A stretch of 64,000 bases of DNA from Helicobacter brantae (lineage in GTDB: Bacteria > Campylobacterota > Campylobacteria > Campylobacterales > Helicobacteraceae). The position numbers and the translations under genes were made by a program. How positions within the stretch are numbered: the first letter of the stretch is position 1; the number at the start of each line of letters is the position of its first letter. This document shows, piece by piece, positions 17,997 to 40,121 of the stretch. Where the stretch lies: positions 124,001 to 188,000 of the forward strand of contig NZ_NXLV01000002.1 in the NCBI RefSeq assembly GCF_003364205.1, written 5' to 3'. Below the pieces are notes generated by a model. The model searched no databases and was not told the origin of the DNA. It saw only the letters and a list, made by a program, of their open reading frames with translations.

Positions 17997-18013
17997 ATGA
18001 CACAACCTGTCGC
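17997..18013 (+). promoter_or_regulatory. island palindrome copy A
   Basis: Core GACACAACCTGTC at 17999-18011 with GC following; the left outer pair is AT instead of GC. It lies 99 bases before the ravA start, farther than in the other copies, and about 46 bases before a TATAAT box at 18059. It is the leftmost of nine copies and lies at the border of the island, between divergent rpoD and ravA. Confidence 0.7.
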
Positions 18014-18058
18014 AGGTATTAGCTAATTTTCTTGTGTCTATATACCGTGGTGGATGGG

Positions 18059-18064
18059 TATAAT
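18059..18064 (+). promoter_or_regulatory. -10 box of the ravA-viaA operon
   Basis: A perfect TATAAT 34 bases before the ravA ATG. No good -35 at normal spacing is visible; the palindrome copy A lies upstream, where an activator could bind. Confidence 0.55.
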
Positions 18065-18097
18065 ATGTTTGAAAATCAATGACAAAAGGATATTGCT

Positions 18098-19543
18098 ATG
18101 AATAATTATTCTCAAAAAATCAGGACGCTTCTTTGTGAGCTATCTATTGGACTTTATGAGAGAGAAGAGCATTTGAAACTTATTTTGCTTTCTATGTTTG
18201 CAGGCAAATCAATTTTTCTTTATGGACCTCCAGGGACAGCTAAGAGTTTGATTGCTAAGCGTGCTTCAATGGCTTTTAGTGTGAATGAAGATAAAAACAA
18301 GAAGTTTTTCTCATACCTAATGAATCGTTTTAGCACACCAGAAGAGATTTTTGGGCCAATTGATATTGCAAAACTCAAACAAAATCAACTCAAGCGTAAT
18401 ACAAGTGGGTATTTACCAACAGCATATTTTTGTTTTTTGGATGAAATATGGAAAAGCTCTCCTGCAATCTTAAATACTTTGCTTACTATCATCAATGAGC
18501 GAACATATCAAGATGGAAATGACAATATAAAAGTTCCACTCAAAGGTATTGTATGTGCAAGCAATGAGTTTCCTAAGGCAGATCAAGGGCTAGAAGCTTT
18601 GTATGATAGGATGCTTGTAAGACTTTGTGTCTATCCAATGCGGGAGAGAGAAAATTTTGAAAAGCTTTTGAGAAAAAAACAAGAAGAAAAACTTAAAATA
18701 TCAGATACTTTTAGTATCCAAGAATTAGAAGAGATTGCAACGCTAAGTCAGGAAGTAGATTTCTCCAAGGAAGCACTAGATACACTACACTTCATAAAAA
18801 TCAGACTTCAAGAAGGCAGGGGTGATGAGAATGAAAATAGTGGAGGCATTTATGTTTCAGATCGTCGTTGGGGGCAAATGGCTGAGCTAGTCAAAACTTC
18901 GGTTTTCTTGAGTGGAAGAGAGGAGATTATTCCTTCTGATTTATTATTGCTAAAACATTGTTTGTGGGGGAAACTTGAAGATAGGGAGAATATAGAAAAG
19001 ATCTTTGAAGAAGCACTACAAAATTTTGCTCCTGCAAAAGAGAATGAATATGTTCAAGTAAGAAAAGAATATCTAAATTTCAAAGCAGATTCAGATAAAA
19101 CTTTTTATAAAAGCGATGGAAGCTTTGACAGAAATGTTACTTTGGGGACAAAAAATCTTTATCTAAAACAATGCGATCAAATGGCAGATGATATTTCTAA
19201 GATTGTTGAAAAACTTAAGGATGAAAAACTGCTTCTATCATCCAAAAATCAAAATCTTTTTATTCCTCAAGAAGATTTTAATGTCGCATTTTTGGGAATT
19301 GATGAGCAGATATCAAAATACACACAGCTCCAACTCAAGATTCAAGAACTCAAATACAACATTGAAAATCAAAAAGATTTTCTAAAACAAAAAAAAGTTC
19401 AAGAAGCAAAAGGATTCAAAACAGCAATAGAAGAACCCAAATCAGAGGCCGACAAGATTCAAAATCAAATAGATGAAATATTGAATAAAAGAGGAATAGT
19501 ATACGGAGGCTTGTTGGGAAACATAGCTGACAAATTTCGATAA
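18098..19543 (+). CDS. ravA: MoxR-family AAA+ ATPase, RavA-like
   Basis: A 481-residue AAA+ ATPase. Walker A is GPPGTAKS (residues 43-50), Walker B is CFLDEIWKS (Asp115-Glu116) and the following PAILNTLLTIINERTY matches RavA closely. Sensor region LKGIVCASNE follows. The C-terminal third is a RavA-like helical/LARA-type region with long charged helices. RavA works with the VWA protein ViaA; in Escherichia coli the pair affects respiratory complexes and membrane stress. The partner gene starts 28 bases downstream. A palindrome and a TATAAT box precede it. The family is certain; its job here is not. Confidence 0.88.
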   Translation: MNNYSQKIRTLLCELSIGLYEREEHLKLILLSMFAGKSIFLYGPPGTAKSLIAKRASMAFSVNEDKNKKFFSYLMNRFSTPEEIFGPIDIAKLKQNQLKRNTSGYLPTAYFCFLDEIWKSSPAILNTLLTIINERTYQDGNDNIKVPLKGIVCASNEFPKADQGLEALYDRMLVRLCVYPMRERENFEKLLRKKQEEKLKISDTFSIQELEEIATLSQEVDFSKEALDTLHFIKIRLQEGRGDENENSGGIYVSDRRWGQMAELVKTSVFLSGREEIIPSDLLLLKHCLWGKLEDRENIEKIFEEALQNFAPAKENEYVQVRKEYLNFKADSDKTFYKSDGSFDRNVTLGTKNLYLKQCDQMADDISKIVEKLKDEKLLLSSKNQNLFIPQEDFNVAFLGIDEQISKYTQLQLKIQELKYNIENQKDFLKQKKVQEAKGFKTAIEEPKSEADKIQNQIDEILNKRGIVYGGLLGNIADKFR

Positions 19544-19570
19544 ATAAAATGATTTGGAGTAAAGTTAGCA

Positions 19571-21079
19571 ATGAATGTTTATATTGAAGGAGAAAATGAG
19601 CAGGTTCAGCAAAAGTATGATGAAGCACTTCGGGATTTTCAGAGACAATGTCAAGAGTTAGAGCATCCTTATCAGGAAGAAGAAGCAGAGCTTTATGGAC
19701 GCTCGTTGCGTCTTCAACTTCCCTCAGATAAAAAAATAACCCAAGAGGATATTGAGCTACTAGAAAAATATTATCCCAATCACCCTTCTTTGGCCTTTGC
19801 AAGAGAGAAGCTTCAAGCAGGAGAGAGTATAGAAAATCTTTCAGAACTTCGCAAATTTATTCATAACTCACATCAAGAGAGCTTATCTAAAAAAATCAGC
19901 GAATGGAGAGAGCAAGAGATTGCTAGATTGAAAAGAGAATTTGAAAAACGCATACAAGAATGGTTGGATCGAATTAGGCAGGCACGAGAGACAAAAAAGG
20001 CTTTGAGTGAAGCCCAAGAGTTGTTTGGAGATTTAGAACAAGATGCTCTTGAATCTTTGGATTTATCAAATCTAGGCGGTGGCAAAGAGCCTATCGATAA
20101 AGAAGGAAGGGTAAGAGGTGCAGGCAAAGAAAGAATGGACACAATCATTCGCCTCTTTAAGGAAATAAAAGATTCTTCATCGTTGCAAAAAATTTGTGAT
20201 TTGCTTGGAGAGTTAGAGAAAAAAGAGCAAGAAGAACGCACAAAAAAAATTATGGAGCAAAGAACCTATACTTTTAATGAAGAGATTCTAAGCAAAGAAT
20301 ATAAAGAAGAGATTGTTGGAGTGAGTTTGGGTAGAGATATAGAAAATCTATTGCCTCAAGAGTTGGGTATGCTAGATGACAATGAGCTTGAAATCTTGTT
20401 TTATCTAAAATTTATTCAAAATCGCTTGTTTTGTTTTGAAAAGGAGGGGTATTCTTCATTTTTGAGAGAAGAGCAGATTGAAGAAGAGGTGGAACAACAA
20501 GACGAAGATGAATCGCAAGATAAGGGAGCGATGATTATCTGTGTGGATACAAGTGGCTCAATGATGGGAGATCCAGAACTGATTGCAAAAGCCGCAACAT
20601 TGTTTTTGGCAGCAAAAGCAAAGAAGCAAAAACGCCCCTGTTTTTTGATCAATTTCAGCACTGAGATTGAGTGTATGGAACTTAGCAAAAAGGGAGGAAT
20701 CGTGGAACTTGAGGAGTTTTTATCTAAAAGTTTTAATGGTGGAACAACTATAGCTCCTGCACTAAAAAGAGGGATAGAAAAAATGAAAGAACCACAATTT
20801 GAAAAATCAGACTTGCTAGTTATTTCTGATGGTGGGTTTGGGCTAATATCTGATGGGTTGAGAAAAGAAGTGTTAGAACAACAAGAATTAGATAATCGCT
20901 TCTATCTTTTGGATGTATCTACTTTTGCTAGTGCAAATGATCTTTTTGACAAACATTGGAGATATGATCCAGCAACTCAAGAGATTGATACGCTTTATGA
21001 TAGAAAAAATGCAAAATCTACACAATATTCATCTGATAATGACACAACCTGTCGCACTGATCCTCTAAACTTCCCTTGA
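19571..21079 (+). CDS. viaA: VWA-domain protein, ViaA-like
   Basis: A 502-residue partner of RavA. A long charged helical N-terminal region (residues 1-310) precedes a von Willebrand A domain with the metal-ion site DTSGSMM (326-332), the second metal loop FNGGTTIAPAL and the third ISDGGFG. ViaA proteins bind the AAA+ partner through the VWA side. The last twelve codons are odd: residues 491-496 (DTTCRT) are encoded by palindrome copy B (21041-21053), so either the gene end has been remodelled by insertion of the element or the operator of the next unit overlaps this coding end. GTAAAGTTAGCAATG precedes the start; GGAG lies about a dozen bases upstream. Confidence 0.85.
   Translation: MNVYIEGENEQVQQKYDEALRDFQRQCQELEHPYQEEEAELYGRSLRLQLPSDKKITQEDIELLEKYYPNHPSLAFAREKLQAGESIENLSELRKFIHNSHQESLSKKISEWREQEIARLKREFEKRIQEWLDRIRQARETKKALSEAQELFGDLEQDALESLDLSNLGGGKEPIDKEGRVRGAGKERMDTIIRLFKEIKDSSSLQKICDLLGELEKKEQEERTKKIMEQRTYTFNEEILSKEYKEEIVGVSLGRDIENLLPQELGMLDDNELEILFYLKFIQNRLFCFEKEGYSSFLREEQIEEEVEQQDEDESQDKGAMIICVDTSGSMMGDPELIAKAATLFLAAKAKKQKRPCFLINFSTEIECMELSKKGGIVELEEFLSKSFNGGTTIAPALKRGIEKMKEPQFEKSDLLVISDGGFGLISDGLRKEVLEQQELDNRFYLLDVSTFASANDLFDKHWRYDPATQEIDTLYDRKNAKSTQYSSDNDTTCRTDPLNFP
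21039..21055 (+). promoter_or_regulatory. island palindrome copy B
   Basis: Core GACACAACCTGTC at 21041-21053 followed by GC. It lies inside the 3' end of viaA and its core begins 61 bases before the ATG of the small gene at 21102, the same spacing as in most other copies. It therefore probably controls the small-protein operon 21102-22443. Confidence 0.75.
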
Positions 21080-21101: not shown

Positions 21102-21281
21102 ATGAATTTTTCAGATTTGATTATTGGTGCTATGATTGGCTATGCAGGATATAAGCTAGGTGAGAAAGTGCAAAAGATTCGCCAAGAGAGGGGTGATGAG
21201 GAGTATGGGCTTGGAGATTTTGTGAGTGAGGTGTTTGAGGATTTGAGTGGAGAGGGAAGGAAGCTTAGAGAGAATGATTGA
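21102..21281 (+). CDS. small glycine-rich membrane protein
   Basis: A 59-residue protein, preceded by AAGGAGTAAAAA. Residues 5-20 form a short Gly-rich hydrophobic helix (GAMIGYAGYKLGE), followed by a charged tail with a GDEEYGLGDF motif. It is clearly related to the product of 21509-21709, which shares GYxLGExVQxxRxExGxxYG. The next gene starts inside its last codons (ATG 21274). Function unknown; a small membrane anchor or partner protein is a guess. It is the first gene after palindrome copy B. Confidence 0.65.
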   Translation: MNFSDLIIGAMIGYAGYKLGEKVQKIRQERGDEEYGLGDFVSEVFEDLSGEGRKLREND

Positions 21282-21501: not shown

Positions 21502-21508
21502 GGAGAAG

Positions 21509-21709
21509 ATGATGGATAAGATTTTGATGACACTAGGTGGCGTGGCATTGGGCGTGGCAGGATATGCACTTGGAGAGATAGTGCAAGAGAGAAGGGCTGA
21601 GAAGGGGGAGGATTATGGGATTTTGGATTTGTTTGAAGAATGGACAGATGAGCTATGTGGAGAGGGGGAGAGAGCTGTGGAGAGGGTGGAAGAGCAATGG
21701 AGAAGCTAG
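21509..21709 (+). CDS. small glycine-rich membrane protein, paralogue
   Basis: A 66-residue paralogue of the protein at 21102-21281. A Gly-zipper-like hydrophobic helix (LGGVALGVAGYALGE) is followed by an acidic tail ending in VEEQWRS. Two ATG codons in tandem follow AAGGAGAAG. The next gene begins within its last codons (21697). Duplication of this small protein on either side of a zinc-ribbon gene suggests that the set works together, but no function can be named. Confidence 0.65.
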   Translation: MMDKILMTLGGVALGVAGYALGEIVQERRAEKGEDYGILDLFEEWTDELCGEGERAVERVEEQWRS

Positions 21710-22495: not shown

Positions 22496-22524
22496 TTGAA
22501 AGATTGCATAAAAATGACTATACT
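22496..22524 (+). promoter_or_regulatory. sigma-70 promoter of the WYL regulator
   Basis: TTGAAA (22496-22501) and TATACT (22519-22524) are separated by 17 bases, a near-ideal sigma-70 promoter, 30 bases before the start codon. No island palindrome lies here, so the regulator may be expressed constitutively. Confidence 0.65.
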
Positions 22525-22554: not shown

Positions 22555-23427
22555 ATGAGTAAAGAACACGACAAACTTGCCACACGCCTTGCCCATACCA
22601 TCGCCAAGCTCAATGGTGGGGAACTTTTGAGTATCGCTGAACTTGCCAAAGAGTTTGGGGTGGATTCACGCACGATACAGAGGGATATCCAAAGACTTTC
22701 ATTCCTTCCCATAGAGAAGAAGGAAGGCAAACTTTTTTTGGCCTCTTATGCTCTAGGGAGTGTGAGCTTTGAGAATCTGAGGGATTTTTTGAGAATGTGT
22801 GGGATTGAAGAGCTTTTCCCTAGTCTTGAAAATAAGGCATTGCAAGATTTGTTTAACCCCAATCTCAACACTTCTCTTCTCATTAACCCTGCAAGTTTTG
22901 AAAAGATTCAGAGTAAGATTTTTGAAGAGCTTCAAGTGGCGATTTTGGAGCACAAGCTGATAAAGTTTCACTACAATCAAAAAGAAAGAAAAATCAAACC
23001 CTACAAACTCAAGCACTATCTAGGACGATGGTATTTGCTCGGAGTTGAAAATGAGAGTATTAAGACCTTTGCATTAGAGAAGATTAAAAATCTCATAATT
23101 TGTTCCCAAGAAGACTTCACTCCTGATGAAGAGCTAGTCAAAGAGATTGAAAAAAATGAATTTAACTTCCTCTCCAAAGATAGAAATGAGATTGTGCTCT
23201 ATATCGACAGCTATGCAATGCCTTACTTTGAGAAACGCAAGATACTGCCCAATCAAAAGATTCTGAGCAGAGATGAGAATGGAATGGAAGTAAGTACGCA
23301 ATCAAGCTATGATGAAGAGATTTTGCGAATCATTCAGCAGTGGATGCCTCATATTCTTATCCTCTCCCCTGAGAGCCTAAAAGAAAGACTCAAAGAGAGG
23401 GTGAGGGGGTATTTGGAGGTTTTGTAG
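22555..23427 (+). CDS. WYL-domain transcriptional regulator (YafY type)
   Basis: A 290-residue regulator. The N-terminal winged helix-turn-helix reads ELLSIAELAKEFGVDSRTIQRDIQRL (about residues 24-50). The WYL domain follows, with the IKFHYNQ strand, KLKHYLGRWYLLG and a C-terminal extension domain. WYL regulators (BrxR, CapW, DriD, PafBC) often control defence or DNA-damage genes and may sense nucleic acids. It is the only sequence-specific DNA-binding regulator recognised in the island and thus the best candidate to bind the nine palindromes; this is inference. The last 51 codons are repeated almost exactly in the chimeric gene at 25145-25534. Confidence 0.85.
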   Translation: MSKEHDKLATRLAHTIAKLNGGELLSIAELAKEFGVDSRTIQRDIQRLSFLPIEKKEGKLFLASYALGSVSFENLRDFLRMCGIEELFPSLENKALQDLFNPNLNTSLLINPASFEKIQSKIFEELQVAILEHKLIKFHYNQKERKIKPYKLKHYLGRWYLLGVENESIKTFALEKIKNLIICSQEDFTPDEELVKEIEKNEFNFLSKDRNEIVLYIDSYAMPYFEKRKILPNQKILSRDENGMEVSTQSSYDEEILRIIQQWMPHILILSPESLKERLKERVRGYLEVL

Positions 23428-23706
23428 TCAAAATTTGTGTGGCTCAACAATGCCTTGTGTGTGAGTAGAGGAGGGCTGATTTTCTGGCAATCTTGCTAAC
23501 CACTCTTTCATTCTCTCCTCTAGTTCTTCTTTATTGATTTGCGTTTCTTCACTTTTTGGATAGGGTGAAGGGGCATAAAAACTAATCTTGCATTTTGTGC
23601 ATTTGCAAAAAATCTCATCTCTAAGTTCATCAAAATCATCAATGACTATTTCCCCTTTTCTTTGGCATTTTGGACATTGCACTTCTAATGTATATGGGAT
23701 AAACAT
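23428..23706 (-). CDS. small zinc-ribbon protein
   Basis: A 92-residue protein with CPKC near the N-terminus and CKCTKC about 25 residues later, a zinc-ribbon spacing, then a PSP-containing linker and an acidic helical tail. The start MF[IP] and the CPKC...KCK...PSP pattern resemble the product of 38659-38847, so the two are probably related. Palindrome copy C lies on its own strand with the core beginning 60 bases before its ATG, and AAAGGAGAG is the ribosome site. It ends directly against the stop of the WYL gene (tail to tail). Confidence 0.65.
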   Translation of the reverse strand: MFIPYTLEVQCPKCQRKGEIVIDDFDELRDEIFCKCTKCKISFYAPSPYPKSEETQINKEELEERMKEWLARLPENQPSSTHTQGIVEPHKF

Positions 23707-23751
23707 TTTCTCTCCTTTACAATCATTGGCTTAGCATTTTCTCATAATCTT

Positions 23752-23768
23752 GCGACAGGTTGTGTCGT
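23752..23768 (-). promoter_or_regulatory. island palindrome copy C
   Basis: On the minus strand ACGACACAACCTGTCGC; core at 23754-23766. The core begins 60 bases before the zinc-ribbon gene at 23706, which also lies on the minus strand. Orientation following the gene is strong support for a directional promoter/operator role. Confidence 0.8.
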
Positions 23769-23877: not shown

Positions 23878-23894
23878 GCGACACAACCTGTCAT
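23878..23894 (+). promoter_or_regulatory. island palindrome copy D
   Basis: GCGACACAACCTGTCAT; core 23880-23892. It begins 62 bases before the GTPase start and lies about 35 bases downstream of the poly-G promoter's TATAAT, so it would sit in the early transcribed region of that promoter as well as act as its own site. Confidence 0.78.
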
Positions 23895-23941
23895 AGTGCA
23901 ATGAAATACTTTTGCTTCAAATTTATTTTTAAGGAGTAGTT

Positions 23942-25072
23942 ATGTCTGCAGAAAAAGATTTTTCAGCTGATGTGAGTGCAATTTTAGGGAAAGCATTTGC
24001 AGAATTTCAAAAGCATATGGAGGAAGACAAAGAGAGCAATCGTCTCAATGTTTTAGTGCTCGGCAAAAGTGGCGTAGGAAAAAGCTCATTGATCAATGCG
24101 GTTTTTGGAAAAGATATGGCAGAAACTGGGCAAGGAAAGCCTGTAACTAGGGGTTTTGAGAAATTTGGAGATGACAATGGCTTGAATATCTTTGATACAA
24201 GAGGAATAGAATCTGAAAATTTTGAAGAGACTATTTCAGATATTGAAAAATTCTTGCAGGAAAATGTTGCCAAGGGGAGTGCAGAGGACCAGATTCATAT
24301 TGCTTGGCTTTGTATCAATGAATCATTGAGAAGAGTTGAGGGCGAAGAGAGGGTTTTGGAAATACTAAAAAAAGAAAAGATACCAACAATTGTGGTGATA
24401 ACAAAAGCACAGCAAGACAAAGATGAAAAAGGTGAGAGTTTTAGAGAGAAGGTTATAGAAATTTTAAAAATCAATCATGAGGATTGTATCCGCACTCGTG
24501 CAGTGGAGGTTTCAGATGATGAAGGAGAAATCAAGAAAATTATGGGAATTGATACTCTTGTAAATAGAAGTTATCTTCTTCTTCCTGAGGGGAAAAAGAG
24601 TGCATTTGCTAAAAAGCAACACTATAACAAGACTATGAGAAGGGAGGCATTAAAAGAAGATGCTTTTTCAAAAGTAAAATATTATACAGCGGCAGCTTCT
24701 ACCGTAGCAGCAACCCCAATTCCTTTCTCTGATTTTGCAATTTTGCTTCCCACACAGGTTGCTATGATTTTGCATATCAGCAAGGTGTATGAAATGGAAA
24801 TCAATCAAGAAAATGCTACAAAACTCATTACTGCCCTAACTGCTGTAGCTGGAGCTGGATACGCAGTAAAAATGGGTGTAGGTGCAGTTCTAAAATTTAT
24901 ACCAGGATTAGGAAGTGTTGCTGGAGGGCTTATCAATGCCACTGTTGCAGGAACTACAACCAAGCTAATGGGTGATGCGTATATTGAATTTTTGGATAAT
25001 AAGTTTATGGACAATGTTTTGACACCAGATTTTGTCTTAAAAAATCTTCCAATTTTTATAGAACAAAAATAG
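23942..25072 (+). CDS. Era-like GTPase with C-terminal membrane (DUF697-like) domain
   Basis: A 376-residue protein. The GTPase domain has G1 GKSGVGKSS (residues 41-49), a switch region with PVTRGF, G3 DTRG and a divergent G4 TKAQ in place of NKxD. The C-terminal part (from about residue 235) has hydrophobic Ala/Gly-rich stretches: VAATPIPFSDFAILLPTQVAMI, AVAGAGYAVKMGVGAVL and PGLGSVAGGLINATVAG. This resembles DUF697/YcjF-type domains that follow such GTPases. It probably acts at the membrane. It is the gene behind the poly-G promoter and palindrome D, so its expression is likely switchable. Its pathway is unknown. Confidence 0.8.
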   Translation: MSAEKDFSADVSAILGKAFAEFQKHMEEDKESNRLNVLVLGKSGVGKSSLINAVFGKDMAETGQGKPVTRGFEKFGDDNGLNIFDTRGIESENFEETISDIEKFLQENVAKGSAEDQIHIAWLCINESLRRVEGEERVLEILKKEKIPTIVVITKAQQDKDEKGESFREKVIEILKINHEDCIRTRAVEVSDDEGEIKKIMGIDTLVNRSYLLLPEGKKSAFAKKQHYNKTMRREALKEDAFSKVKYYTAAASTVAATPIPFSDFAILLPTQVAMILHISKVYEMEINQENATKLITALTAVAGAGYAVKMGVGAVLKFIPGLGSVAGGLINATVAGTTTKLMGDAYIEFLDNKFMDNVLTPDFVLKNLPIFIEQK

Positions 25073-25085: not shown

Positions 25086-25098
25086 GACATAACCTGTC
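25086..25098 (+). promoter_or_regulatory. island palindrome copy E (variant)
   Basis: GACATAACCTGTC, one base different from the consensus core in the central CAACC, with AT following. It begins 59 bases before the chimeric gene, and a TTAAAC -10-like sequence starts 24 bases after it. Confidence 0.65.
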
Positions 25099-25100
25099 AT

Positions 25101-25139
25101 TCTCCTAGATTAAACTTCTGTTTGTAAAAAACTAGGAGA
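25101..25139 (+). other. hairpin that would sequester a ribosome site
   Basis: TCTCCTAG (25101-25108) and CTAGGAGA (25132-25139) are perfectly complementary over eight bases. The 3' arm contains the ribosome site of the chimeric gene, so the structure would hide it. A similar arrangement precedes the gene at 38659 after palindrome H. If transcription starts just after the -10 sequence at 25110 the 5' arm would be absent, so the hairpin forms only on longer transcripts. Confidence 0.4.
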
Positions 25140-25144: not shown

Positions 25145-25534
25145 ATGAATCAAAACAAACAATACAAGCTTCAAAAAATGAAACTCTTCACAACCTCTCT
25201 GCTCTTTGTGGCAGGTGGGTTTCTGTATCTTTCTTTTGTGCTAGATTGCCATTGGCTTAGGGCTGTGAGTGAAGCGGCACTTATAGGAGGGATTGCAGAT
25301 TGGTTTGCAGTGGAGGCACTTTTTAGACACCCTCTAGGACTTCCTATCCCTCACACTGCTATTATCCCCAAGAGCAAAGATGAGAATGGAATGGAAGTAA
25401 GCACACAATCAAGCTACAATGAAGAGATTTTGCGAATCATTCAGCAGTGGATGCCCCATATTCTTATCCTCTCTCCTGAGAGCCTAAAAGAAAGACTTAA
25501 AGAGAGGGTGAAAGGATATTTGGAGACGATTTAA
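25145..25534 (+). pseudogene. DUF445-WYL chimeric gene
   Basis: A 129-residue open frame made from two neighbours. Residues 1-78 match the first 78 residues of the DUF445 protein at 37402 with few changes (signal-like hydrophobic start, then GGIADWFAV). Residues 79-129 match the last 51 residues of the WYL regulator at 22555 almost exactly. The joint lies at about 25378-25385, at AGATGAGA, which is present in both parents; a 14-base stretch around it differs by one base. It has a good ribosome site and palindrome E, so it may be expressed, but neither parent domain is complete. Most likely a recombination remnant. Confidence 0.85.
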
Positions 25535-26821: not shown

Positions 26822-26838
26822 GCGACACAACCTGTCGC
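26822..26838 (+). promoter_or_regulatory. island palindrome copy F (perfect)
   Basis: GCGACACAACCTGTCGC, with T before and A after, giving perfect 7-base arms around CAACC. The core begins 64 bases before the start of the gene at 26888. Confidence 0.8.
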
Positions 26839-26887
26839 AATGTAATGAAATAATGATGCTTACAACTAAGACAAATAAGGAGTAAAA

Positions 26888-27178
26888 ATGGGCAGTAGTA
26901 TTTGTGCGGATCCAAGATTTAAGCCATTGTGTCCAGAGTGCGATTCTAACCGTGTAGAGGCATATTCAAATCTATTTGGTTTAATGCAAGGCTATCAATG
27001 TAAGGCATGCGGTCATGCTTTTAGTGGTTATTTTGATGATAATTTTTCAAGTTGGGAATGGTGTAGTTCTTGTGGAAGAGCAGTATATGTTTCTAGTTGG
27101 AATAGTCGTTGTCGAGAAACAAGCGACCATAAACACACTTTAGAAAGAAGAAGGTGGAGAACCAAAGATGAGGTATAG
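26888..27178 (+). CDS. zinc-ribbon protein
   Basis: A 96-residue protein with two zinc-binding pairs of knuckles: CPECDS and CKACGH in the first half, and WCSSCGR with a further Cys (NSRC) in the second half, plus a basic C-terminal tail. This looks like a double zinc ribbon that could bind nucleic acid or a protein. Start ATG after AAGGAGTAAAA. It lies behind the second poly-G promoter and palindrome F. I cannot assign a function. Confidence 0.65.
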   Translation: MGSSICADPRFKPLCPECDSNRVEAYSNLFGLMQGYQCKACGHAFSGYFDDNFSSWEWCSSCGRAVYVSSWNSRCRETSDHKHTLERRRWRTKDEV

Positions 27179-27214: not shown

Positions 27215-27379
27215 ATGTTAGAAAAACAAGAATGTTATATTGACTATCTTGAGCAACTCAAAAATACCCTAAATGACACATCAATAAAATTTGATGAGGC
27301 AATAGAGCAAAGAGTTAAAGATATTGAACCAATTGTCCCTTTCTTACCTCTCAATCATCGGCTTGGCATTTTCTCATAA
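27215..27379 (+). CDS. small coiled-coil-like protein, probably truncated
   Basis: A 54-residue frame with AGGAG eight bases before ATG 27215. The acidic helical sequence (YIDYLEQLKNTLND...) looks like a real protein start, but its last ten residues (PLNHRLGIFS) come from DNA that matches, in reverse, the leader of the zinc-ribbon gene near 23707-23750. The gene therefore probably lost its original 3' end when the duplicated promoter block was joined here. Function unknown. Confidence 0.45.
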   Translation: MLEKQECYIDYLEQLKNTLNDTSIKFDEAIEQRVKDIEPIVPFLPLNHRLGIFS

Positions 27380-29734: not shown

Positions 29735-29775
29735 GGAACTAATGATTTTTTTTAATGCATTAATAAGGAGTTAAA

Positions 29776-31929: not shown

Positions 31930-31939
31930 GGAGGAGTAT

Positions 31940-32647
31940 ATGGGACTTTTTGACACAATTTGTAGTATAGGATCAAGTATAGTTAGTGGGGTAAAAAGTG
32001 TGTGCTCAGCTATTGGCAGTGCATGTTCAAGCATTGGGGGAGCGATAGCAAGTGGGATTGGGACTTTGGCTCAAAAAATCTTAGAGCTTCCTGTGAAGCC
32101 CACAATCGTTGATGCTATTATTGGTTTGGTTAAAGCAGTTGCAGAGCTTTTGATGGATTCTCCAAAAGATGAAAAAGTAGAAGATTTGGGAGCTGCAATG
32201 AAGCAGGCTGAGAAAAAACCAGAAGATTTTGATAGTATCAATGACTATATTGACTACTTGCGTGAGGAGATAAAAAAGGGCAATGTCAAGCTTGGACAAT
32301 CAGAGGGGATTGAATTGTTTTCTGAAAAAATGATGGGTGTGGCATTGCTAAGTGAAGGACTTGGTGAAAAATATGGAATGAAACCAAGTGCAGAGTTTTG
32401 GGGAGAGATGGGAAAAAAAGTGCATGATGGGAAGCTTGAGCCCAAAGAGGTAGGATCCATTATCCAAAAAGCCAGTCAGGCTGAAGTGCAACTCGATAAT
32501 GTTTCCAATTATCTCAAGGGAGAAGAAGTGAAAGACAATAAAAAGAGTGAAGTTTCTTCTGTCATCATTGGTGGATTAAAAGAGAGCAACCCATCTTTGA
32601 GTGATTTGGAAATTGATAAGCGTTTCAATGAATTGATTAAGCAGTAG
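31940..32647 (+). CDS. protein with glycine/serine-zipper N-terminus
   Basis: A 235-residue protein I do not recognise. The first 45 residues are rich in Gly, Ser, Ala, Ile and Cys (GSSIVSGVKSVCSAIG, GGAIASGIGTLA), like a glycine-zipper helix that could insert into or lie on a membrane; there is no cleavage site. The rest is acidic and helical. It starts ten bases after the Hsp70-like gene with AGGAGG upstream. It could be a membrane-active client or effector held by the chaperone pair; that is a guess from context. Confidence 0.6.
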   Translation: MGLFDTICSIGSSIVSGVKSVCSAIGSACSSIGGAIASGIGTLAQKILELPVKPTIVDAIIGLVKAVAELLMDSPKDEKVEDLGAAMKQAEKKPEDFDSINDYIDYLREEIKKGNVKLGQSEGIELFSEKMMGVALLSEGLGEKYGMKPSAEFWGEMGKKVHDGKLEPKEVGSIIQKASQAEVQLDNVSNYLKGEEVKDNKKSEVSSVIIGGLKESNPSLSDLEIDKRFNELIKQ

Positions 32648-32675
32648 TCCAACAAGGGGGAGGGAGGGGGAAATA

Positions 32676-32697
32676 TGCTAAAAATTATGCTTTAGCA
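32676..32697 (+). other. hairpin downstream of the glycine-zipper gene
   Basis: TGCTAAA (32676-32682) and TTTAGCA (32691-32697) with an eight-base loop, followed by A-rich DNA. A purine-rich G5AG3AG5 stretch lies just before (32656-32670). There is no strong U-run, so attenuation rather than complete termination is possible. Confidence 0.4.
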
Positions 32698-32735
32698 AAA
32701 AATAATCAAAACAAAAAGCTAGACAAGGAAGAAAA

Positions 32736-33242
32736 ATGCAAAGAGTGATTAGAATGGCTTTTGTGCTAGTGGATTCAAAACTTCGTCTTTTTAAGATTGA
32801 ACATCAAATGGAAGAAGTCAAAAAAGAAGGGGAGAGGCTCATTTGCGTTGATGAGAATTTTTGGGAATGGTGGAAGCAGGAGATGGATTATGTCAAAGAT
32901 GATGTGTTGGATCTTTGCTTTGTTTGGGATAAACAAGATGAGATTTTGCATAATGGTGAATTTTTCTCTGCAGAGTTACAATCTGACTTTTGGAATCAAA
33001 GAGAAGTTTTAAATCTACTAAGAGATCTTGGTATTGATGCTAAGGTGGTTGATAGTCGTGGAAAACTGCTTAAAGATTCAAAAAAATCTTCACTGCAACT
33101 TTATAGCAATATCGTGTGGAGTGAGTTCATTCAACAGCCTTCAAAACAAAAAGAAGTCATCTGCAAGGACGATGAAGGGAAATCCCCAGCTTGGTGGTAT
33201 TTTGAAAACAAAAGAAGAGAAAGAGAGCGAAGGAGAGGATAA
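32736..33242 (+). CDS. hypothetical protein, 168 residues
   Basis: Soluble, Trp-rich protein (WEWWKQEMDYVKDD, PAWWYF) with a very basic C-terminal tail of alternating Arg and Glu. I do not recognise the family. AAGGAAG precedes ATG 32736; an in-frame ATG six codons later is possible. Its stop overlaps the start of the HerA-like ATPase gene (TAATG), so the two are translationally coupled and their products may form one complex. Confidence 0.6.
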   Translation: MQRVIRMAFVLVDSKLRLFKIEHQMEEVKKEGERLICVDENFWEWWKQEMDYVKDDVLDLCFVWDKQDEILHNGEFFSAELQSDFWNQREVLNLLRDLGIDAKVVDSRGKLLKDSKKSSLQLYSNIVWSEFIQQPSKQKEVICKDDEGKSPAWWYFENKRRERERRRG

Positions 33243-36200
33243 TGGAAGCTTTAGGACAAAAATATCTCAATCACAAAAAACTTTTAATAAAACAAGAAAA
33301 ACAGATTGATGTTCAAGATATTGTTCTATATCAAGTAGAAAGCATTACTTATGAAGAAGAAGCTCCCAAAAGAGAGGCTTTAGAAAATGTTTTGAGTTCT
33401 TTGAGGATTGAGGGAATCAACTTTATTTATCTTATTATAGGAGACGAAAATGGAACAAACTTTTATTATGGTGTTTCAAGAGATCTTAATGCTTCAAAGT
33501 CAGAATTGAGTATCAATGAGATAGGGGAGTTTATTTTAAAACCCAGTATCAAAGGGAACTTTAGAGGTTCTCAAGTTCGATTGATTAGAGGGGAGGAAAA
33601 ACGCAAAATCTTAAATCAACTTAACTTCAAATGTTCTAGCATGATTGAGGGAGTTCCGGGGGTCTTAAAAAAAGAAGATGATTTTCAAGGAAGCGATAGA
33701 TTAGTTGATGTGATGAGTGGGTCTCATTTTGGTTTTATGATCATTGCTTCTTTGCTTAATGATGAACAATTAGAAAAGATCGAAAGAGGCATTTTCGAGC
33801 TTTACAATGCATTCTCTCCTCAAGCCAAGTGTAGCAAGCAAGAAACACAATCTACAAATACAGGTTCAAATACAAGTGTTACAAATACAACTAATACAAG
33901 CACAACCAATGGCACCAACACAAGTAAAAGTGAGGGGGGTAATGAAAGCCAAACGCACGGAGAGAGCAGATCACACTCATCTCAAACCACACACTCTCAA
34001 GCAAAATCAGAAACTGCAAATAGTGGCGAGTCAACAACACAGGGCAAAAATTTCAATACTTCAGTAAGTACTTCAGAAGGAACTACTGAATCAAGTGGGA
34101 GCACTTATAGCAAAGACAAATCTTCAAGCAACAGTACAAGCAATGGAACCAACTCTAGCACCACAACAAGTGCAGGAAAAACTCAAAGTAATTCTAGGAC
34201 AGAAACTACATCTCAAACAGATTCAACGACAACCAATCAATCCAAGAGTATCGGAAAAAGCAAAACGGAAACAAATGGGAGTAGCAAAAGCAAAACAGAA
34301 GGCACAAGTCAGGCTCAAACACAGGGGGAAAGTACGGGGAGCTCTACTTCTGAATCTATGACAAAGGAATTTTCAAACAAAGAAATTCAAGACTGGGTCA
34401 AATATATTGATGAAATTTTACTTCCAAGAGTAGATTATGGAAAGGGTAAGGGAATGTTTGTGGGGGGTATGTTTTGCTTCTCAGATTCTGAGGCTGTGCT
34501 TAAAAAACTTGAGAATACAGTTATCTCTCTTTTTAGTGGAGATATTGGCAATAAAGTTCCTTTGAGGGCTTTTTTGCTCAAGGATATAAAACAGATTGAA
34601 ATGATAAAAAATCTTCAACTTCCAAGATTTGATCAAAAAACAAAAAACCAATCTAGCGAGATTCTTTATTCTCAATGCGATGAGTTTTTGGGTAATTGGA
34701 TGAGCTCCAAAGAACTTAGTTTGATTGCAGGATTGCCCAAAAAGGATGTGGTGGGATTGGAGTTGAGGGAAGAGGTGGAATTTGGTTTGAATTTTCCACA
34801 GGTTAGCGAAGATGAGGGACTCACACTTGGCAAACTTATGCAAAGCGGAAATATCACTAGCAGAAATGTCAATCTTGCATACTCCAATCTTGATAAACAC
34901 ATTTTCATCACAGGTGTTACAGGGAGTGGGAAAACTACGACTTGCCAAAATATCCTTATCCAATCCAATCTCCCCTTTTTGGTGATTGAACCTGCAAAAA
35001 CAGAGTATCGAATCCTCAAAGAAAGATATGAAGATTTACTAATTTTCACGCTTGGCAAAGATACCACAGCCCCATTTAGGCTCAACCCCTTTGAGTTCTT
35101 TCCTCATGAAAGTATAACTTCAAGAGTGGATATGATCAAAGCAAGTATAGAATCATCTTTTGATATGGAAGCAGCTATCCCTCAAATTATTGAGAGTGCA
35201 ATCTATGAGATTTACAAAGATTATGGGTGGAATATCGCAACCAATCAAAACGAGATTTATGGAGAAAATGCCTTTGATGATGGAGTTTATTCTTTTCCCA
35301 CTTTAGAGGATTTAGTAAAAAAAGTTGAAGTGGTTGTGAAAGAGCAGGGATTTGATGAGCGATTAAAAAATGACTATATTGGCTCAATCAAAGCGAGATT
35401 GAATGGCTTACTTGTAGGCTCAAAAGGTTTTATGCTCAATACCAAAAGATCGATTGATTTTAGAAAATTGCTTAATCAACGCGTAGTTTTGGAGATAGAA
35501 GAGATTCGCAATGGAAGTGAGAAATCTCTTGTGATGGGATTTGTGCTAAGCAATGTGATAGAAGCAATCAAGGCAAATTTCCTCTCAAGCACTCAAAAGA
35601 GTGGAGTAAGACATATTATTCTTATTGAAGAAGCTCATCGATTGCTCAGTAAATTTCAAGCAGGTGATAGCCCCAACAAAAAACAAGGGGTTGAGGTTTT
35701 TGCAGATATGCTTGCTGAGATAAGAAAATATGGGGAATGTTTGATGATAGCAGATCAAATCCCCAACAAACTCACTCCTGAAGTGCTAAAAAACACAAAT
35801 ACCAAAATCGTTCATCGACTTTTTGCAGAAGATGACAAACAAGCAATCGCAAATACAATGGCACTTGAAGAAGAACAAAAAGAGTTTTTAAGCAAACTTG
35901 ATGCAGGTGTGGCGATTGTGTTTTCAGGAGGTTTCAACAAGGCGATTGCCACAAAAATCTCCCAAACTTCCAACACCACCTCAGATCTTGTCATTACCGA
36001 AGAGGAGTTGCAAAAAAATGTTTATAAATTCTATGCTGATTGTTATAAAAGTGGCGTGATTGTAGGCTCTTCTTGGCTAGAGAGCGTGGGGGTGGAAGAG
36101 ATTGCTATCTTGCTTGATTTGCAGAGAAGAGGTGGGCTAATGAGAGAGATAAAAAAACACTGGGAAGCAAAGCAAAAAATCGCCCCCAAACTCTTAAAAA

Positions 36201-36373
36201 GTCTTCAAAGATTTGCTGATAAGTTAAGTGTAGATTTTCTTGCAAAGTATTTTATCGTGGAGAATGCGATCAGTGAGACGAAGCTAGAATATGCAAAAGA
36301 ATTTTTGGCAAAATATCTTAGTAATAGTTTGTGCGAATCTGATGTGAGATATTTTAATGATGAGCTATTTTAG
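33242..36373 (+). CDS. HerA/VirB4-like ATPase with long Ser/Thr/Asn/Gln-rich linker
   Basis: A 1043-residue protein. Residues 1-195 form an alpha/beta N-terminal domain. Residues about 200-375 are extreme low complexity, almost only Ser, Thr, Asn, Gln, Gly and Lys in imperfect repeats, expected to be disordered. The rest is a HerA/VirB4-type (DUF87) RecA-like motor: Walker A GVTGSGKTT (558-566), LVIEPAKTEYR shortly after, Walker B ILIEEAHRLL (Glu796-797), sensor-like VHRLFAEDDKQAI. These motors move DNA or proteins through hexameric pores. It is coupled to the gene before and followed four bases later by the patatin gene. Substrate unknown. Confidence 0.8.
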   Translation: MEALGQKYLNHKKLLIKQEKQIDVQDIVLYQVESITYEEEAPKREALENVLSSLRIEGINFIYLIIGDENGTNFYYGVSRDLNASKSELSINEIGEFILKPSIKGNFRGSQVRLIRGEEKRKILNQLNFKCSSMIEGVPGVLKKEDDFQGSDRLVDVMSGSHFGFMIIASLLNDEQLEKIERGIFELYNAFSPQAKCSKQETQSTNTGSNTSVTNTTNTSTTNGTNTSKSEGGNESQTHGESRSHSSQTTHSQAKSETANSGESTTQGKNFNTSVSTSEGTTESSGSTYSKDKSSSNSTSNGTNSSTTTSAGKTQSNSRTETTSQTDSTTTNQSKSIGKSKTETNGSSKSKTEGTSQAQTQGESTGSSTSESMTKEFSNKEIQDWVKYIDEILLPRVDYGKGKGMFVGGMFCFSDSEAVLKKLENTVISLFSGDIGNKVPLRAFLLKDIKQIEMIKNLQLPRFDQKTKNQSSEILYSQCDEFLGNWMSSKELSLIAGLPKKDVVGLELREEVEFGLNFPQVSEDEGLTLGKLMQSGNITSRNVNLAYSNLDKHIFITGVTGSGKTTTCQNILIQSNLPFLVIEPAKTEYRILKERYEDLLIFTLGKDTTAPFRLNPFEFFPHESITSRVDMIKASIESSFDMEAAIPQIIESAIYEIYKDYGWNIATNQNEIYGENAFDDGVYSFPTLEDLVKKVEVVVKEQGFDERLKNDYIGSIKARLNGLLVGSKGFMLNTKRSIDFRKLLNQRVVLEIEEIRNGSEKSLVMGFVLSNVIEAIKANFLSSTQKSGVRHIILIEEAHRLLSKFQAGDSPNKKQGVEVFADMLAEIRKYGECLMIADQIPNKLTPEVLKNTNTKIVHRLFAEDDKQAIANTMALEEEQKEFLSKLDAGVAIVFSGGFNKAIATKISQTSNTTSDLVITEEELQKNVYKFYADCYKSGVIVGSSWLESVGVEEIAILLDLQRRGGLMREIKKHWEAKQKIAPKLLKSLQRFADKLSVDFLAKYFIVENAISETKLEYAKEFLAKYLSNSLCESDVRYFNDELF

Positions 36374-36376
36374 ATA

Positions 36377-37399
36377 ATGAGAAAAAAGCAAAAAATTGGA
36401 GTTGTCCTTGCTGGGGGTGGAGCTAAGGGGGCGTATGAAGTGGGTTTTATTAGGGCTTTGAGTGAGTTTGGGATAGAGCCTGATGTGATTGCTGGGACAA
36501 GCATCGGGGCACTCAATGGGTGTTTGTATGCATCTTTGAAAAGCACTCAAGATACTTACAAGATACTAAAAAAAGTTTGGAATCGGCTCAAAAAAGAAAG
36601 TCCTCTAAAAATTGATAAGCTTGATAGTGCATTGCACCTAACAGATTTGCTACTTCTTGTCAAAAATGGTGGCTCACTCTCTTCTACTGCCCTATCTCCA
36701 AAAAATAAGGGGATTTTTCAGACAAATCCTGTTTTGGAAATATTGCAAAAAAACACATCAATACAAGGGATAAAAAAGGGCTTACCCTTTTATATTTCAA
36801 TGAGTGAAGCAAATGACACACTAGAAGATGTTTTGCACCTAATGGATTTAAATAGATTTTTGAATCTCACAAAAGTCAAAACTCATTATCTAAAAGTTCA
36901 AGAAATAAAAGATGAAAATATTTATAAGTGTATTTTGGCCTCAGCGGCTCTTCCTTTTTTGTTTGACGCTCAAGAGATTGATGGAAAAATGTATCGAGAT
37001 GGCTGTCTTGGTGTAAATTACGATTCTTCAGCAAACGCTCCTGTTTTGCCACTCATTCAGCAGGAAAAATGCAATCTTATTTTTGTATGTCATTTAGATG
37101 ATAAGGTTTCATTTGTAGAGCAGTATGGTGAGTTTGAAAATACAAAAATTATAGAAGTAACCCCACGAAAAGATACTTTTACAAGTGCATTGGATCCACT
37201 AAGATTCAATCAAGAGAAGATTGATTTTTGGATGAAAAGAGGATATCAAGATAGCAAAAAAGTTTTAAAAGCTTTCAGAGAGGGCAAAACTATTGAAAAA
37301 CTAGGTGTAAATAAAACACAAGAGGTCAAAGAAACCATAGTAAAAACAGCGATACAAGGGTTAGTCGCCCTAATACAAAAAAACAATACTAAGGAGTAA
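36377..37399 (+). CDS. patatin-like phospholipase
   Basis: A 340-residue patatin. The oxyanion loop is GGGAKGAY (13-20), the nucleophile is Ser42 in GTSIG, and the catalytic Asp is probably Asp208 in RDGCLGVN, where the family usually has DGG/DGA. The enzyme would hydrolyse membrane lipids as a cytosolic serine hydrolase. Patatins are known effectors in several bacterial conflict systems (for example CapV in CBASS). Here it lies between the HerA-like motor and the DUF445 membrane protein, with tight spacing. No signal peptide. Whether it is an effector or housekeeping enzyme cannot be told from sequence. Confidence 0.82.
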   Translation: MRKKQKIGVVLAGGGAKGAYEVGFIRALSEFGIEPDVIAGTSIGALNGCLYASLKSTQDTYKILKKVWNRLKKESPLKIDKLDSALHLTDLLLLVKNGGSLSSTALSPKNKGIFQTNPVLEILQKNTSIQGIKKGLPFYISMSEANDTLEDVLHLMDLNRFLNLTKVKTHYLKVQEIKDENIYKCILASAALPFLFDAQEIDGKMYRDGCLGVNYDSSANAPVLPLIQQEKCNLIFVCHLDDKVSFVEQYGEFENTKIIEVTPRKDTFTSALDPLRFNQEKIDFWMKRGYQDSKKVLKAFREGKTIEKLGVNKTQEVKETIVKTAIQGLVALIQKNNTKE

Positions 37400-37401
37400 A
37401 A

Positions 37402-38595
37402 ATGAATCAAAATAAACAACAGGCACTTCAAAAAATGAAACTCTTCACAACCTCTCTGCTCTTTGTAGCAGGTGGGTTTCTCTATCTTTCTTTTGTGCTA
37501 GATTGTCATTGGCTTAGGGCTGTGAGTGAAGCGGCACTTGTAGGAGGGATTGCAGATTGGTTTGCAGTGGTGGCACTTTTTAGACACCCTCTAGGGCTTC
37601 CTATCCCTCACACTGCTATTATCCCCAAGAGCAAAGATGAGATAGCCAAAAACTTGGGACAATTTATCAAGCTTGAGTTTTTCAGCAAAGAGAATTTACG
37701 CAAATCCACTTTCCTAGAAAAACTCAGTCTCAAAAAAATCATCGAGAGCTTTATCGAGGGCAAAAGCACCTCATTTTCTCTCCACGCCCTCACCCAAGCC
37801 CTAGAGAGCAAAATCCCCACTTTATGTGAGAAAATCAAAGATGAGGAGAAAAATCTAAGATTTTTAGAGCAAGTCAATTTCTCCAAGCTCATCGGAGAGG
37901 GGTTGCACTCTATCCAAAATAGTGCTTCTTATGATGAGATTGTCAAAGAGCTTGTAGAGATTATTGATGAGAAGTTTCAAGGACTAAAGAGCAAGCTAAG
38001 GGAAGAGTTGGTGGGAGATTCTTGGATAAACAAAGGTATAAGCTTTCTCACAAGTTATGATGATAAAGTCATCAATGGGATTGAAGAGTATATTGACAAG
38101 CTCAAAAACCCTAGTGCAAAAGAACTCAATCAACTCAAACTTGCTTTGCAAGACTATATCCACAAGCTTCTCCACGATGAAAGCACTATCAACTCTGTTA
38201 ATGCCAAGATCAAAGGAGCACTGAGTTCCGAGACGAGTGCCAAAATTCTTACAGCAGTTTTAGAGCATATTCAAGAGAATAAAATCATCTCTACTACAAT
38301 TGCTGACATGCTCAAACGCTCACTCCAAAACTTCTGCAATGATACTCGCAAACTCGTTGCCACAGAGCGATGGATAAAAAATAAGATTGTCAATATTGTA
38401 GGAGATTATAGTGATGAGATTGCAAGATTTATTGAAAACACAATCAAGTCTTGGGATAGCCAAGAGATTAGCCAAAAGCTAGAGCTTGAAGTGGGAAAAG
38501 ACTTGCAATTTATTCGAATCAATGGAATGCTAGTGGGTGGAATCATCGGTGGGGTGATTTATGGGATTGAGAGATTTTTTGCTCTAATCTCTTAA
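37402..38595 (+). CDS. DUF445-family membrane protein
   Basis: A 397-residue protein of the DUF445/YjiN family. One membrane segment lies near residues 12-32, followed by the conserved ALVGGIADWFAVVALFRHPLG stretch, then a long helical middle part and a second membrane segment at the end (MLVGGIIGGVIYG). The function of the family is unknown; envelope location is inferred. It follows the patatin stop directly, with AAGGAGTAAAA. The first 78 codons are duplicated in the chimeric gene at 25145-25534. Confidence 0.85.
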   Translation: MNQNKQQALQKMKLFTTSLLFVAGGFLYLSFVLDCHWLRAVSEAALVGGIADWFAVVALFRHPLGLPIPHTAIIPKSKDEIAKNLGQFIKLEFFSKENLRKSTFLEKLSLKKIIESFIEGKSTSFSLHALTQALESKIPTLCEKIKDEEKNLRFLEQVNFSKLIGEGLHSIQNSASYDEIVKELVEIIDEKFQGLKSKLREELVGDSWINKGISFLTSYDDKVINGIEEYIDKLKNPSAKELNQLKLALQDYIHKLLHDESTINSVNAKIKGALSSETSAKILTAVLEHIQENKIISTTIADMLKRSLQNFCNDTRKLVATERWIKNKIVNIVGDYSDEIARFIENTIKSWDSQEISQKLELEVGKDLQFIRINGMLVGGIIGGVIYGIERFFALIS

Positions 38596-38597
38596 GA

Positions 38598-38614
38598 GCG
38601 ACACAACCTGTCAT
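38598..38614 (+). promoter_or_regulatory. island palindrome copy H
   Basis: GCGACACAACCTGTCAT; core 38600-38612, beginning 59 bases before the start at 38659. A TTTAAT -10-like hexamer (38625-38630) begins 25 bases after the core start, so the palindrome occupies the -35 position of that promoter. Confidence 0.78.
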
Positions 38615-38654
38615 CTCCTTTGGGTTTAATATCAAAAATCCAAAAAGAAGGAGA
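38614..38654 (+). other. possible ribosome-site-sequestering arms
   Basis: TCTCCTT (38614-38620) is complementary to AAGGAGA (38648-38654), the ribosome site of the small zinc-ribbon gene. The layout repeats that at 25101-25139. The 5' arm would be transcribed only from promoters upstream of the palindrome. Confidence 0.35.
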
Positions 38655-38658
38655 AGAT

Positions 38659-38847
38659 ATGTTTCCAAGAAGAGTAAGATATGAGTGTCCCAAGTGTGGT
38701 AGAAGAGAGAGCCACACAGAGGGGTGTTTGAAATTTCCAAGATGTTGCAAAAAATGTAAACTTGAGCTAGAAGTCAAAGATGTCAGTTTTAATCCCACTC
38801 CATCTCCCAAAGAGGTGGTGGATATGGTTTTAAATATTTTCAAGTAG
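38659..38847 (+). CDS. small zinc-ribbon protein
   Basis: A 62-residue protein: YECPKCGRRE near the N-terminus, CLKFPRCCKKCKLE in the middle, then an NPTPSPKE linker and a short hydrophobic helix. ATG 38659 follows AAGGAGAAG; an upstream frame extension to 38620 lacks a ribosome site. It resembles the product of 23428-23706, also first behind a palindrome. Zinc binding is inferred; function unknown. Confidence 0.65.
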   Translation: MFPRRVRYECPKCGRRESHTEGCLKFPRCCKKCKLELEVKDVSFNPTPSPKEVVDMVLNIFK

Positions 38848-38913
38848 ATTAAAACCTCACTTTGGGTATTTCATTGCGATAAAATGTCAATCAAAATACT
38901 CAAAGGAAAAATT

Positions 38914-40011
38914 ATGCAAAATCTCCTCATTCTCTTCAACCCCTACTATCAAAAAGATGTGATTGATTCTCACATTGCCATTCTCAAAGACAGAGGGGCA
39001 GTAGGATTTGGCAAAATCAAATCCAAGCTCACCTCTCTCTCAACCCCAAAAGAGCTAGATTGGGACTCTCTCTCAAGTGTTTCTTCTACCTCTCCACTTC
39101 AGCTATTTCTCACAGATTATTCCTCTCTTTTTGTAGCCAAAGTTGTGAGCGTGAGTGCAGAGATTGATCCCACTCTTGCTCCAAGCTATTATCAAGAAAA
39201 GAGCCTAGAAGTGGAAGCTTGGTTTGTGATAGCTGATATGATTGAGCTAGTGCATAAGGATTTTGAGAAAATTAGAGATCTATTCCTTGCAAATTTCACA
39301 ACCCCAGATTATGGCAATCACACTTATGCAATTTATGGCAATTCTTATCAATATCCCCTTAAAGTGGAGATGAAAAATGAGATAAACTATTTTACTTCCA
39401 ACGAGCTTTTTTATCCCAATATTTATAAATCTGATGAGTTTCTCTCTATCAAAAACAATTTGATTTCTTATGTTTTTGGAGATTTGGGGTATCGACTTCA
39501 TCCTGAGAGCTTGGAAAATTTAGTCTTTGCTGAAATGGAGTTTGAGAAAAATAAAGAAGATAAACTTTATGATTTTACTGGAGTTGCAATGCGGTATGGA
39601 AAAGCACTTGAAATGGAGGCGTATTGGTTCTTTAGTTTCTTCCTATCTTTATTGATGCGCAAAGAAGAAAGGGTGTCCAATGTGATTTTTTTGGCATATG
39701 GTCAAAAAACTAAAGTTTCGGATTTTAAAAAAGTTTATCCAGGTTTGGGGGCTTATAAGGTTTTGTTAGCTAATTCGATTATTGCAAAGACAATTAGGGA
39801 TAATCAGCTTAAATGGGCTTCAAAAAATATAGTTGATAATATCACGATAATTCAAAGAGTTAGAAATCGTGCGGCACATCAAGGAAAAATATCCTTGAAT
39901 GAAATAGAAAAAATGAGAAATGCAATTTTGGGTATTGGTGAAAATCAGGTTATTTTTGATTTTCTTAGAAAACGTTTAGAGATCAATAAAATAAATATGG
40001 GGAATAATTAG
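38914..40011 (+). CDS. hypothetical protein with possible HEPN domain
   Basis: A 365-residue soluble protein. The N-terminal two thirds are not recognised. The C-terminal helical part contains Arg317-Asn-Arg-Ala-Ala-His322 in QRVRNRAAHQGKIS, which fits the R-x4-6-H motif of HEPN ribonucleases often found in defence and toxin systems; the surrounding sequence is helical as needed. ATG 38914 (AAAGGA upstream) is preferred to ATG 38884. GC and codon use become less AT-rich in the N-terminal half than in the C-terminal half, which may mean a fusion. The HEPN call is tentative. Confidence 0.55.
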   Translation: MQNLLILFNPYYQKDVIDSHIAILKDRGAVGFGKIKSKLTSLSTPKELDWDSLSSVSSTSPLQLFLTDYSSLFVAKVVSVSAEIDPTLAPSYYQEKSLEVEAWFVIADMIELVHKDFEKIRDLFLANFTTPDYGNHTYAIYGNSYQYPLKVEMKNEINYFTSNELFYPNIYKSDEFLSIKNNLISYVFGDLGYRLHPESLENLVFAEMEFEKNKEDKLYDFTGVAMRYGKALEMEAYWFFSFFLSLLMRKEERVSNVIFLAYGQKTKVSDFKKVYPGLGAYKVLLANSIIAKTIRDNQLKWASKNIVDNITIIQRVRNRAAHQGKISLNEIEKMRNAILGIGENQVIFDFLRKRLEINKINMGNN

Positions 40012-40104
40012 GTATTTTCTCAATAAACGCCTAGCACTTGAGGGAAGAGATAAACAATAGAAAAATCCCTTGCAACCCTTCACTATAAAACCTATGTTTT
40101 AAAA

Positions 40105-40121
40105 ACGACACAACCTGTCGC
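40105..40121 (+). promoter_or_regulatory. island palindrome copy I
   Basis: ACGACACAACCTGTCGC; core 40107-40119, beginning 59 bases before the start at 40166. TTAAAT (40132-40137) begins 25 bases after the core start, the same geometry as copy H. The following leader (ATTAAATATCAAAAATC) is also alike in both copies. Confidence 0.78.

Follow-up and report, generated by a model that had tools for sequence, protein, structure and literature searches.

What is the short palindrome that recurs around a WYL-domain regulator gene in Helicobacter brantae, and which protein would read it? The 64,000-nucleotide (nt) stretch analysed here (the window) belongs to a genome of 1.73 megabases (Mb) and contains an island with nine copies of a 13-base core, labelled sites A to I, together with a gene for a WYL protein at 22555. 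Judged from sequence, each copy is very likely the operator of an activator-dependent promoter served by this protein, which would be a WYL activator of the DriD and PafBC kind; GACAYAACCTGTC is its predicted binding target.

A search of the window gave exact copies of the core GACACAACCTGTC at 17999, 21041, 23754 (minus strand), 23880, 26824, 27386 (minus strand), 38600 and 40107, and a single-mismatch copy, GACATAACCTGTC, as site E at 25086; the T variant of the site E core is also in use in Helicobacter pametensis (L103). All other matches in the window have at least 3 mismatches, which bears out a first-pass annotation of this DNA in which nine copies had been listed at these places and nowhere else. 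Its further observation that the core starts 59–64 nt before a start codon in seven copies was reproduced (B, 61 nt; C, 60 nt; D, 62 nt; E, 59 nt; F, 64 nt; H, 59 nt; I, 59 nt), as was the placement of site C on the minus strand (core 23754–23766) with its gene (23428–23706, minus strand), 60 nt away. Site A lies 99 nt from its gene. Site G has no gene behind it and flanks resembling those of site C, and looks like a decayed, orphaned duplicate.

A -10-like hexamer, previously noted for sites H and I, starts exactly 25 nt after the core start in 9/9 window sites (TAATTT, TAAACT, GAAAAT, AATACT, TAAACT, AATAAT, GAAAAT, TTTAAT and TTAAAT for A to I), often as a poor -10 box. When 21 cores from this genome and relatives were gathered blind to the -10, the match to TATAAT averaged 4.5/6 at offset 25 and 1.0–3.0 at every other offset; the final T of the hexamer was present in 21/21 cores, and the peak lay on one side only. 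If the hexamer is numbered -12 to -7, the palindrome extends from about -37 to -25; by direct inspection, the core contains no box resembling TTGACA at the usual distance. Both arms were invariant in the 21 sites. The centre is asymmetric and fixed, as had been annotated, and together with the one-sided -10 this would set the direction of the promoter. Covariation of the arms, with G-C pairs becoming A-T, was rejected, as the variable base pair beside the core was complementary in 9/21 sites, which equals chance (shuffle P 0.61).

The whole-genome motif search proposed with the first annotation returned 10 exact copies, 9/10 of them inside one 42-kilobase (kb) stretch, and rules out a scatter like that of repetitive extragenic palindromic (REP) sequences. 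Two exact copies lie outside the window, so the regulon would reach beyond the island. One, on another contig (C33:106884), is located 60 nt upstream of the ATG of a gene for an autotransporter of 2306 amino acids (aa; L010:9885-16865), and would link a surface protein to the island's regulator. The other, on the minus strand at C22:121806 (L009:11807), marks the left edge of the island, 2.2 kb to the left of the window. This latter copy has a -10-like AAAAAT at +25 and is directed into a HipA-like gene at the 3′ end; as an orphan, it may be a remnant of the island's left edge or serve as a promoter for antisense transcription. Single-mismatch matches in the genome at C22:87099 and C33:62509 were dropped for want of a -10 at +25, whereas the match at C2:45851 has one and adjoins a WYL paralogue.

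The distribution of the site was compared with that of the WYL gene in a family sample of 121 genomes, a close WYL homologue being defined by E<1e-64. The exact core was present in 6/121 genomes, all six among the nine with such a homologue, and in none of the other 112 (Fisher P 2e-8, kinship of the genomes uncorrected). The pattern GACA-N5-TGTC-N12-TANNNT gave 91 matches in 120 family genomes, by our own count about four times the backward control, and 30/91 lay within 15 kb of a WYL gene, where ~2 were expected. Searching a large genome collection with the WYL alignment yielded 80 loci from Campylobacterota, Beta- and Gammaproteobacteria and a few other groups. GACA-N5-TGTC occurred at 101 places in 67/80 of these loci, compared with 8–38 places when the spacer had another length and no more than 55 when the arms were replaced by others of equal composition, and TANNNT followed at offset 25 in 61 cases versus 0–14 at other offsets. 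An oriented site with the -10 at N12 was found in 62/80 loci (shuffled loci, 0–3/80), with a consensus close to AAAAC-GACAYVACCTGTC-N12-TANNNT, and the site stood directly upstream of the WYL gene itself in 19 cases. RavA-like, ViaA-like, ParA and RelA/SpoT-like island genes were absent from the 80 loci, and other island genes were rare. The co-occurrence in 121 genomes and in 62/80 loci, along with the likeness to known WYL activators set out below, argues for the earlier assignment of a directional promoter element to the WYL protein at 22555 as its putative regulator.

This protein (22555–23427, plus strand) carries HTH_11, WYL and WCX, all above Pfam cut-offs in a single protein, and is thus a WYL-domain transcription factor. 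A structure was predicted at a mean predicted local distance difference test (pLDDT) score of 72.6 and a predicted template modelling (pTM) score of 0.44; the nearest PDB folds to this model were DriD (E 1e-12) and then PafBC, with BrxR and CapW weaker. By sequence, PafBC scores better than DriD, whose profile matched at an E-value of only 0.0023. A single-sequence PDB search returned PafBC and no other match. Residues R145, Y160 and K170, invariant in 16 WYL homologues, align with basic or tyrosine positions of PafB, near R181, Y196 and R208, which matter there for single-stranded DNA (ssDNA); the numbering offset between species is inferred, and other PafB arginines are not kept. No second full-length WYL gene is present in the island, where the piece at 25145–25534 is a C-terminal remnant.

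DriD is a WYL activator of an SOS-independent DNA damage response in Caulobacter crescentus. Its test oligonucleotide ATACGACAGTAACTGTCGTAT contains C-GACA-GTAAC-TGTC-G, and its sites lie across the -35, always equally far from the -10 (PMC12340889). Three printed DriD promoters were aligned on the only position with G in all of them, a property that the paper gives for -14, and in this alignment of our own -12 falls 12 nt past the second arm. The two systems thus share a GACA-N5-TGTC (GAC-N7-GTC) operator, to which all nine window sites conform, an overlap with the -35 and a fixed N12 to the -10 (here in 21 blind-collected sites and 62/80 loci; for DriD by our own alignment), and, in the model, the best fold match. 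They differ in their distant sequences, the AACC-type centre of the Helicobacter sites, the outer ATA/TAT flanks, which are not conserved, and the crowding of the Helicobacter sites in one island; the protein is not assigned here as a DriD orthologue. The mycobacterial PafBC promoter, which works by sigma adaptation, has the form tTGTCRgtg-8nt-TannnT, that is TGTC-N12-TANNNT (PMC5656591), and shares TGTC at -26, 12 nt before the -10; PafBC also has the same domain order. PafBC is, however, a heterodimer from two adjacent WYL genes in which one subunit reads the promoter, while a full palindrome and a single gene are found here. SiwR of Mycobacterium smegmatis is a homodimeric WYL activator whose palindrome takes in the -26 region (PMC10693628); in contrast to the present site this is a 19-base-pair imperfect palindrome, GACA/TGTC arms are not reported, and a single operon is controlled. 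BrxR of bacteriophage exclusion (BREX) systems and CapW of cyclic-oligonucleotide-based antiphage signalling systems (CBASS) are likewise WYL dimers on palindromes in mobile islands, but both repress, from sites that overlap the -10 (CapW, PMC9122588) or repeats that lie after it (BrxR, PMC9122601), whereas the Helicobacter site lies at about -37 to -25. In open-licence papers on WYL regulators in Helicobacter or Campylobacter the motif was not reported.

In the proposed mechanism the WYL protein, probably as a homodimer, would bind GACA-N5-TGTC and replace the -35 box, the two inverted arms fitting two winged-helix domains; it is the palindrome that suggests a dimeric regulator. Bound in this way, the protein would recruit housekeeping RNA polymerase, or hold it steady, at a weak -10 box set precisely 12 nt beyond the second arm. 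DriD, PafBC and SiwR suggest by analogy that single-stranded nucleic acid is probably what the WYL domain senses, and DNA damage or a similar stress would then turn the genes on. We infer the binding of the protein, activation rather than repression, the ligand and the stress; the comparison supports a mode of action like that of DriD and PafBC.

Several observations weigh against activation through this site. An oriented site is lacking in 18/80 WYL loci, the WYL protein is distant from both DriD and PafBC in sequence, and the structure model, at its pTM, is of moderate confidence. A candidate promoter of the WYL gene itself was located at 22496–22524, and such matches are no commoner than chance. 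Helicobacter promoters often have no clear -35, and the absence of a -35 alone therefore says little. Finally, in the window no site stands directly before the gene run at 27591–38595 (RelA/SpoT-like, Hsp70-like, HerA-like, patatin and DUF445 genes), so that the 'island-wide' regulon of the first-pass annotation was too strongly worded: multiple island genes do lie behind sites, but this run does not, two copies, site G and that at the left edge, seem to be orphans, and a further site is on a different contig.

The same sites might instead be bound by the WYL protein as a repressor that occludes the -35 and is released by a signal, in the manner of BrxR and CapW at defence genes. Several WYL regulators repress islands, the site overlaps the promoter and this island has conflict-type genes. 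Against this, the operators of CapW and BrxR lie on or after the -10 and the present site is always upstream of it; one spacing and polarity are fixed over many taxa, which a need for contact between RNA polymerase and the protein would predict; many of the -10 boxes are poor; and the activators DriD and PafBC have a matching operator and spacing. Repression is accordingly regarded as improbable, and a direct role of a different protein even more so. If the site belonged to an alternative sigma factor or another island regulator, with the WYL gene merely a neighbour, the fixed, sigma-like spacing to the -10 (16 nt from AACC) and the resemblance of AACC to some extracytoplasmic function (ECF) -35 boxes would be accounted for. 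A sigma site need not be palindromic, however, and here the arms show no variation in 21 sites, persist across phyla and accompany a -10 of the housekeeping type. Moreover, the sites stay beside the WYL gene where other island genes are mostly absent, and their centres change with the WYL clade, which makes this explanation very improbable.

A mobile or REP-like repeat, or the duplication of one promoter without any regulation, is a scarcely credible origin of the copies. Sites C and G share longer flanks, G is without a gene and the island has a duplication scar at 25145–25534, all of which would suit a repeat; yet the flanks of all sites other than C and G are unrelated, and the distances to the -10 and the start codon are nonetheless preserved. 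The genome has just two more exact copies, one of them in front of a gene at the same distance, and the comparative data already contradict this explanation.

With activation by the WYL protein as the preferred reading, the variation of the centre can be followed across relatives. The 5-nt centre follows the WYL tree, TGGTT/TCGTT, TTATR, CTTTT and TCTTA/CCTAA each being confined to its own small clade, and WYL paralogues use other centres (YCTAA, TCTTA and CTTTT, on contigs G000:C2 and G001:C41). On contig C2 of this genome, GACATCTTATGTC was found 67 nt before the paralogue's own gene. Sites of the paralogue class precede repeat proteins, read as BspA-like, and ~1600-aa surface-type proteins, both here and in a sister species; such sites were seen at L182:4728, 14668 and 18673 and at L183:1036-13617. 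In a further relative (G047), five sites of the type GACA-N5-TGTC-N12-TATAAT with T-rich spacers were noted (C3:2884, C4:18634, C10:23015, C13:248873 and C67:68742), none within 15 kb of the WYL gene found there, possibly a different regulon with the same geometry.

A wider proposal, which we consider evenly poised between right and wrong, has two parts. A shared grammar, GACA-N5-TGTC-N12 followed by the -10, with a regulator-specific 5-nt centre, would unite WYL activators from several phyla, namely this clade, DriD and, through its TGTC half, PafBC; and in Helicobacter and its relatives, where LexA is lacking, each member of a set of WYL paralogues would recognise a centre of its own and control a programme, triggered by ssDNA or stress, for small membrane, island and surface proteins. 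The new elements would be a promoter grammar that holds across the clade, with a centre specific to each regulator, and its use in a regulon of many sites within a group that has no LexA. No LexA was found in this genome, and 0/60 family genomes scored over the profile cut-off; a LexA-free stress circuit would thus fill a gap, and in Helicobacter such a candidate is directly testable. The same LexA profile search excluded LexA control of the sites. WYL regulators are numerous and few have known targets, and a searchable element would yield target genes across Campylobacterota and Beta- and Gammaproteobacteria prior to any experiment, and would place WYL activators that were described independently within a single promoter geometry.

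In relatives, a site is very often followed first by a gene for a small or N-terminally anchored membrane protein (membrane calls by eye). Campylobacterota have the type MLPLIIGGVALAATGYGIKK..., and Beta- and Gammaproteobacteria a protein of about 55 aa that reads MFWxFxLLVGL..VKLGAYSV.... Behind site B of the window comes MNFSDLIIGAMIGYAGYKLGE..., a 59-aa protein that resembles first genes behind sites in relatives (L102, L103), with a second protein of the same type at 21509. The product of didA, a DriD target, is a small membrane protein, and the small membrane targets may parallel it, an analogy worth testing. Its gene is described as encoding a cell division inhibitor (PMC4211646). Other candidate targets in the window are a DUF697 GTPase, cysteine-rich small proteins and a RavA/ViaA-like pair. 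The small target proteins fell into no Pfam family.

The sites and their genes were located as follows, on the plus strand unless stated otherwise. Site A (core 17999–18011; TAATTT 18024–18029) lies upstream of a RavA-like MoxR ATPase gene (18098–19543; Pfam bpMoxR, with a partial RavA match under the cut-off), which is followed by a ViaA-like VWA protein gene (19571–21079). In the gap between site A and this ATPase gene, a perfect TATAAT at 18059–18064 may supply the RavA-like operon with a second promoter and account for the odd 99-nt distance. Site B (core 21041–21053; TAAACT 21066–21071) is inside the 3′ end of the ViaA-like gene, and the gene for the probable 59-aa membrane protein (21102–21281; no Pfam family) is the first after it, the similar small open reading frame (ORF) spanning 21509–21709. 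Behind site C (-10-like GAAAAT 23736–23741, minus strand) is the gene for a cysteine-rich (CxxC) 92-aa protein with no Pfam match, and behind site D (core 23880–23892; AATACT 23905–23910) that for the GTPase with DUF697 (23942–25072). Site E (core 25086–25098; TAAACT 25111–25116) appears intact and precedes a chimeric remnant with a DUF445 N-terminus and a WYL C-terminus (25145–25534), the WYL part of which (last ~50 residues) has 92% identity to residues 238–289 of the intact WYL protein; by its sequence, this ORF is the scar of a deletion between two cassettes.

Site F (core 26824–26836; AATAAT 26849–26854) precedes a gene for a cysteine-rich 96-aa protein (26888–27178; no Pfam match), and the orphaned site G (core 27386–27398; GAAAAT 27368–27373) is on the minus strand. 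Site H (core 38600–38612; TTTAAT 38625–38630) precedes a gene for a cysteine-rich 62-aa protein (38659–38847), whose homologue in Helicobacter pametensis (L103) is likewise behind a site. Site I (core 40107–40119; TTAAAT 40132–40137) precedes a gene for a 78-aa protein (40166–40402; no Pfam match). Between the genes of sites H and I, a 375-aa protein with an RNRAAH motif (HEPN-like R-x4-H) is encoded at 38884–40011, and its homologues occur near the WYL gene in 8/80 loci, the most of any island gene.

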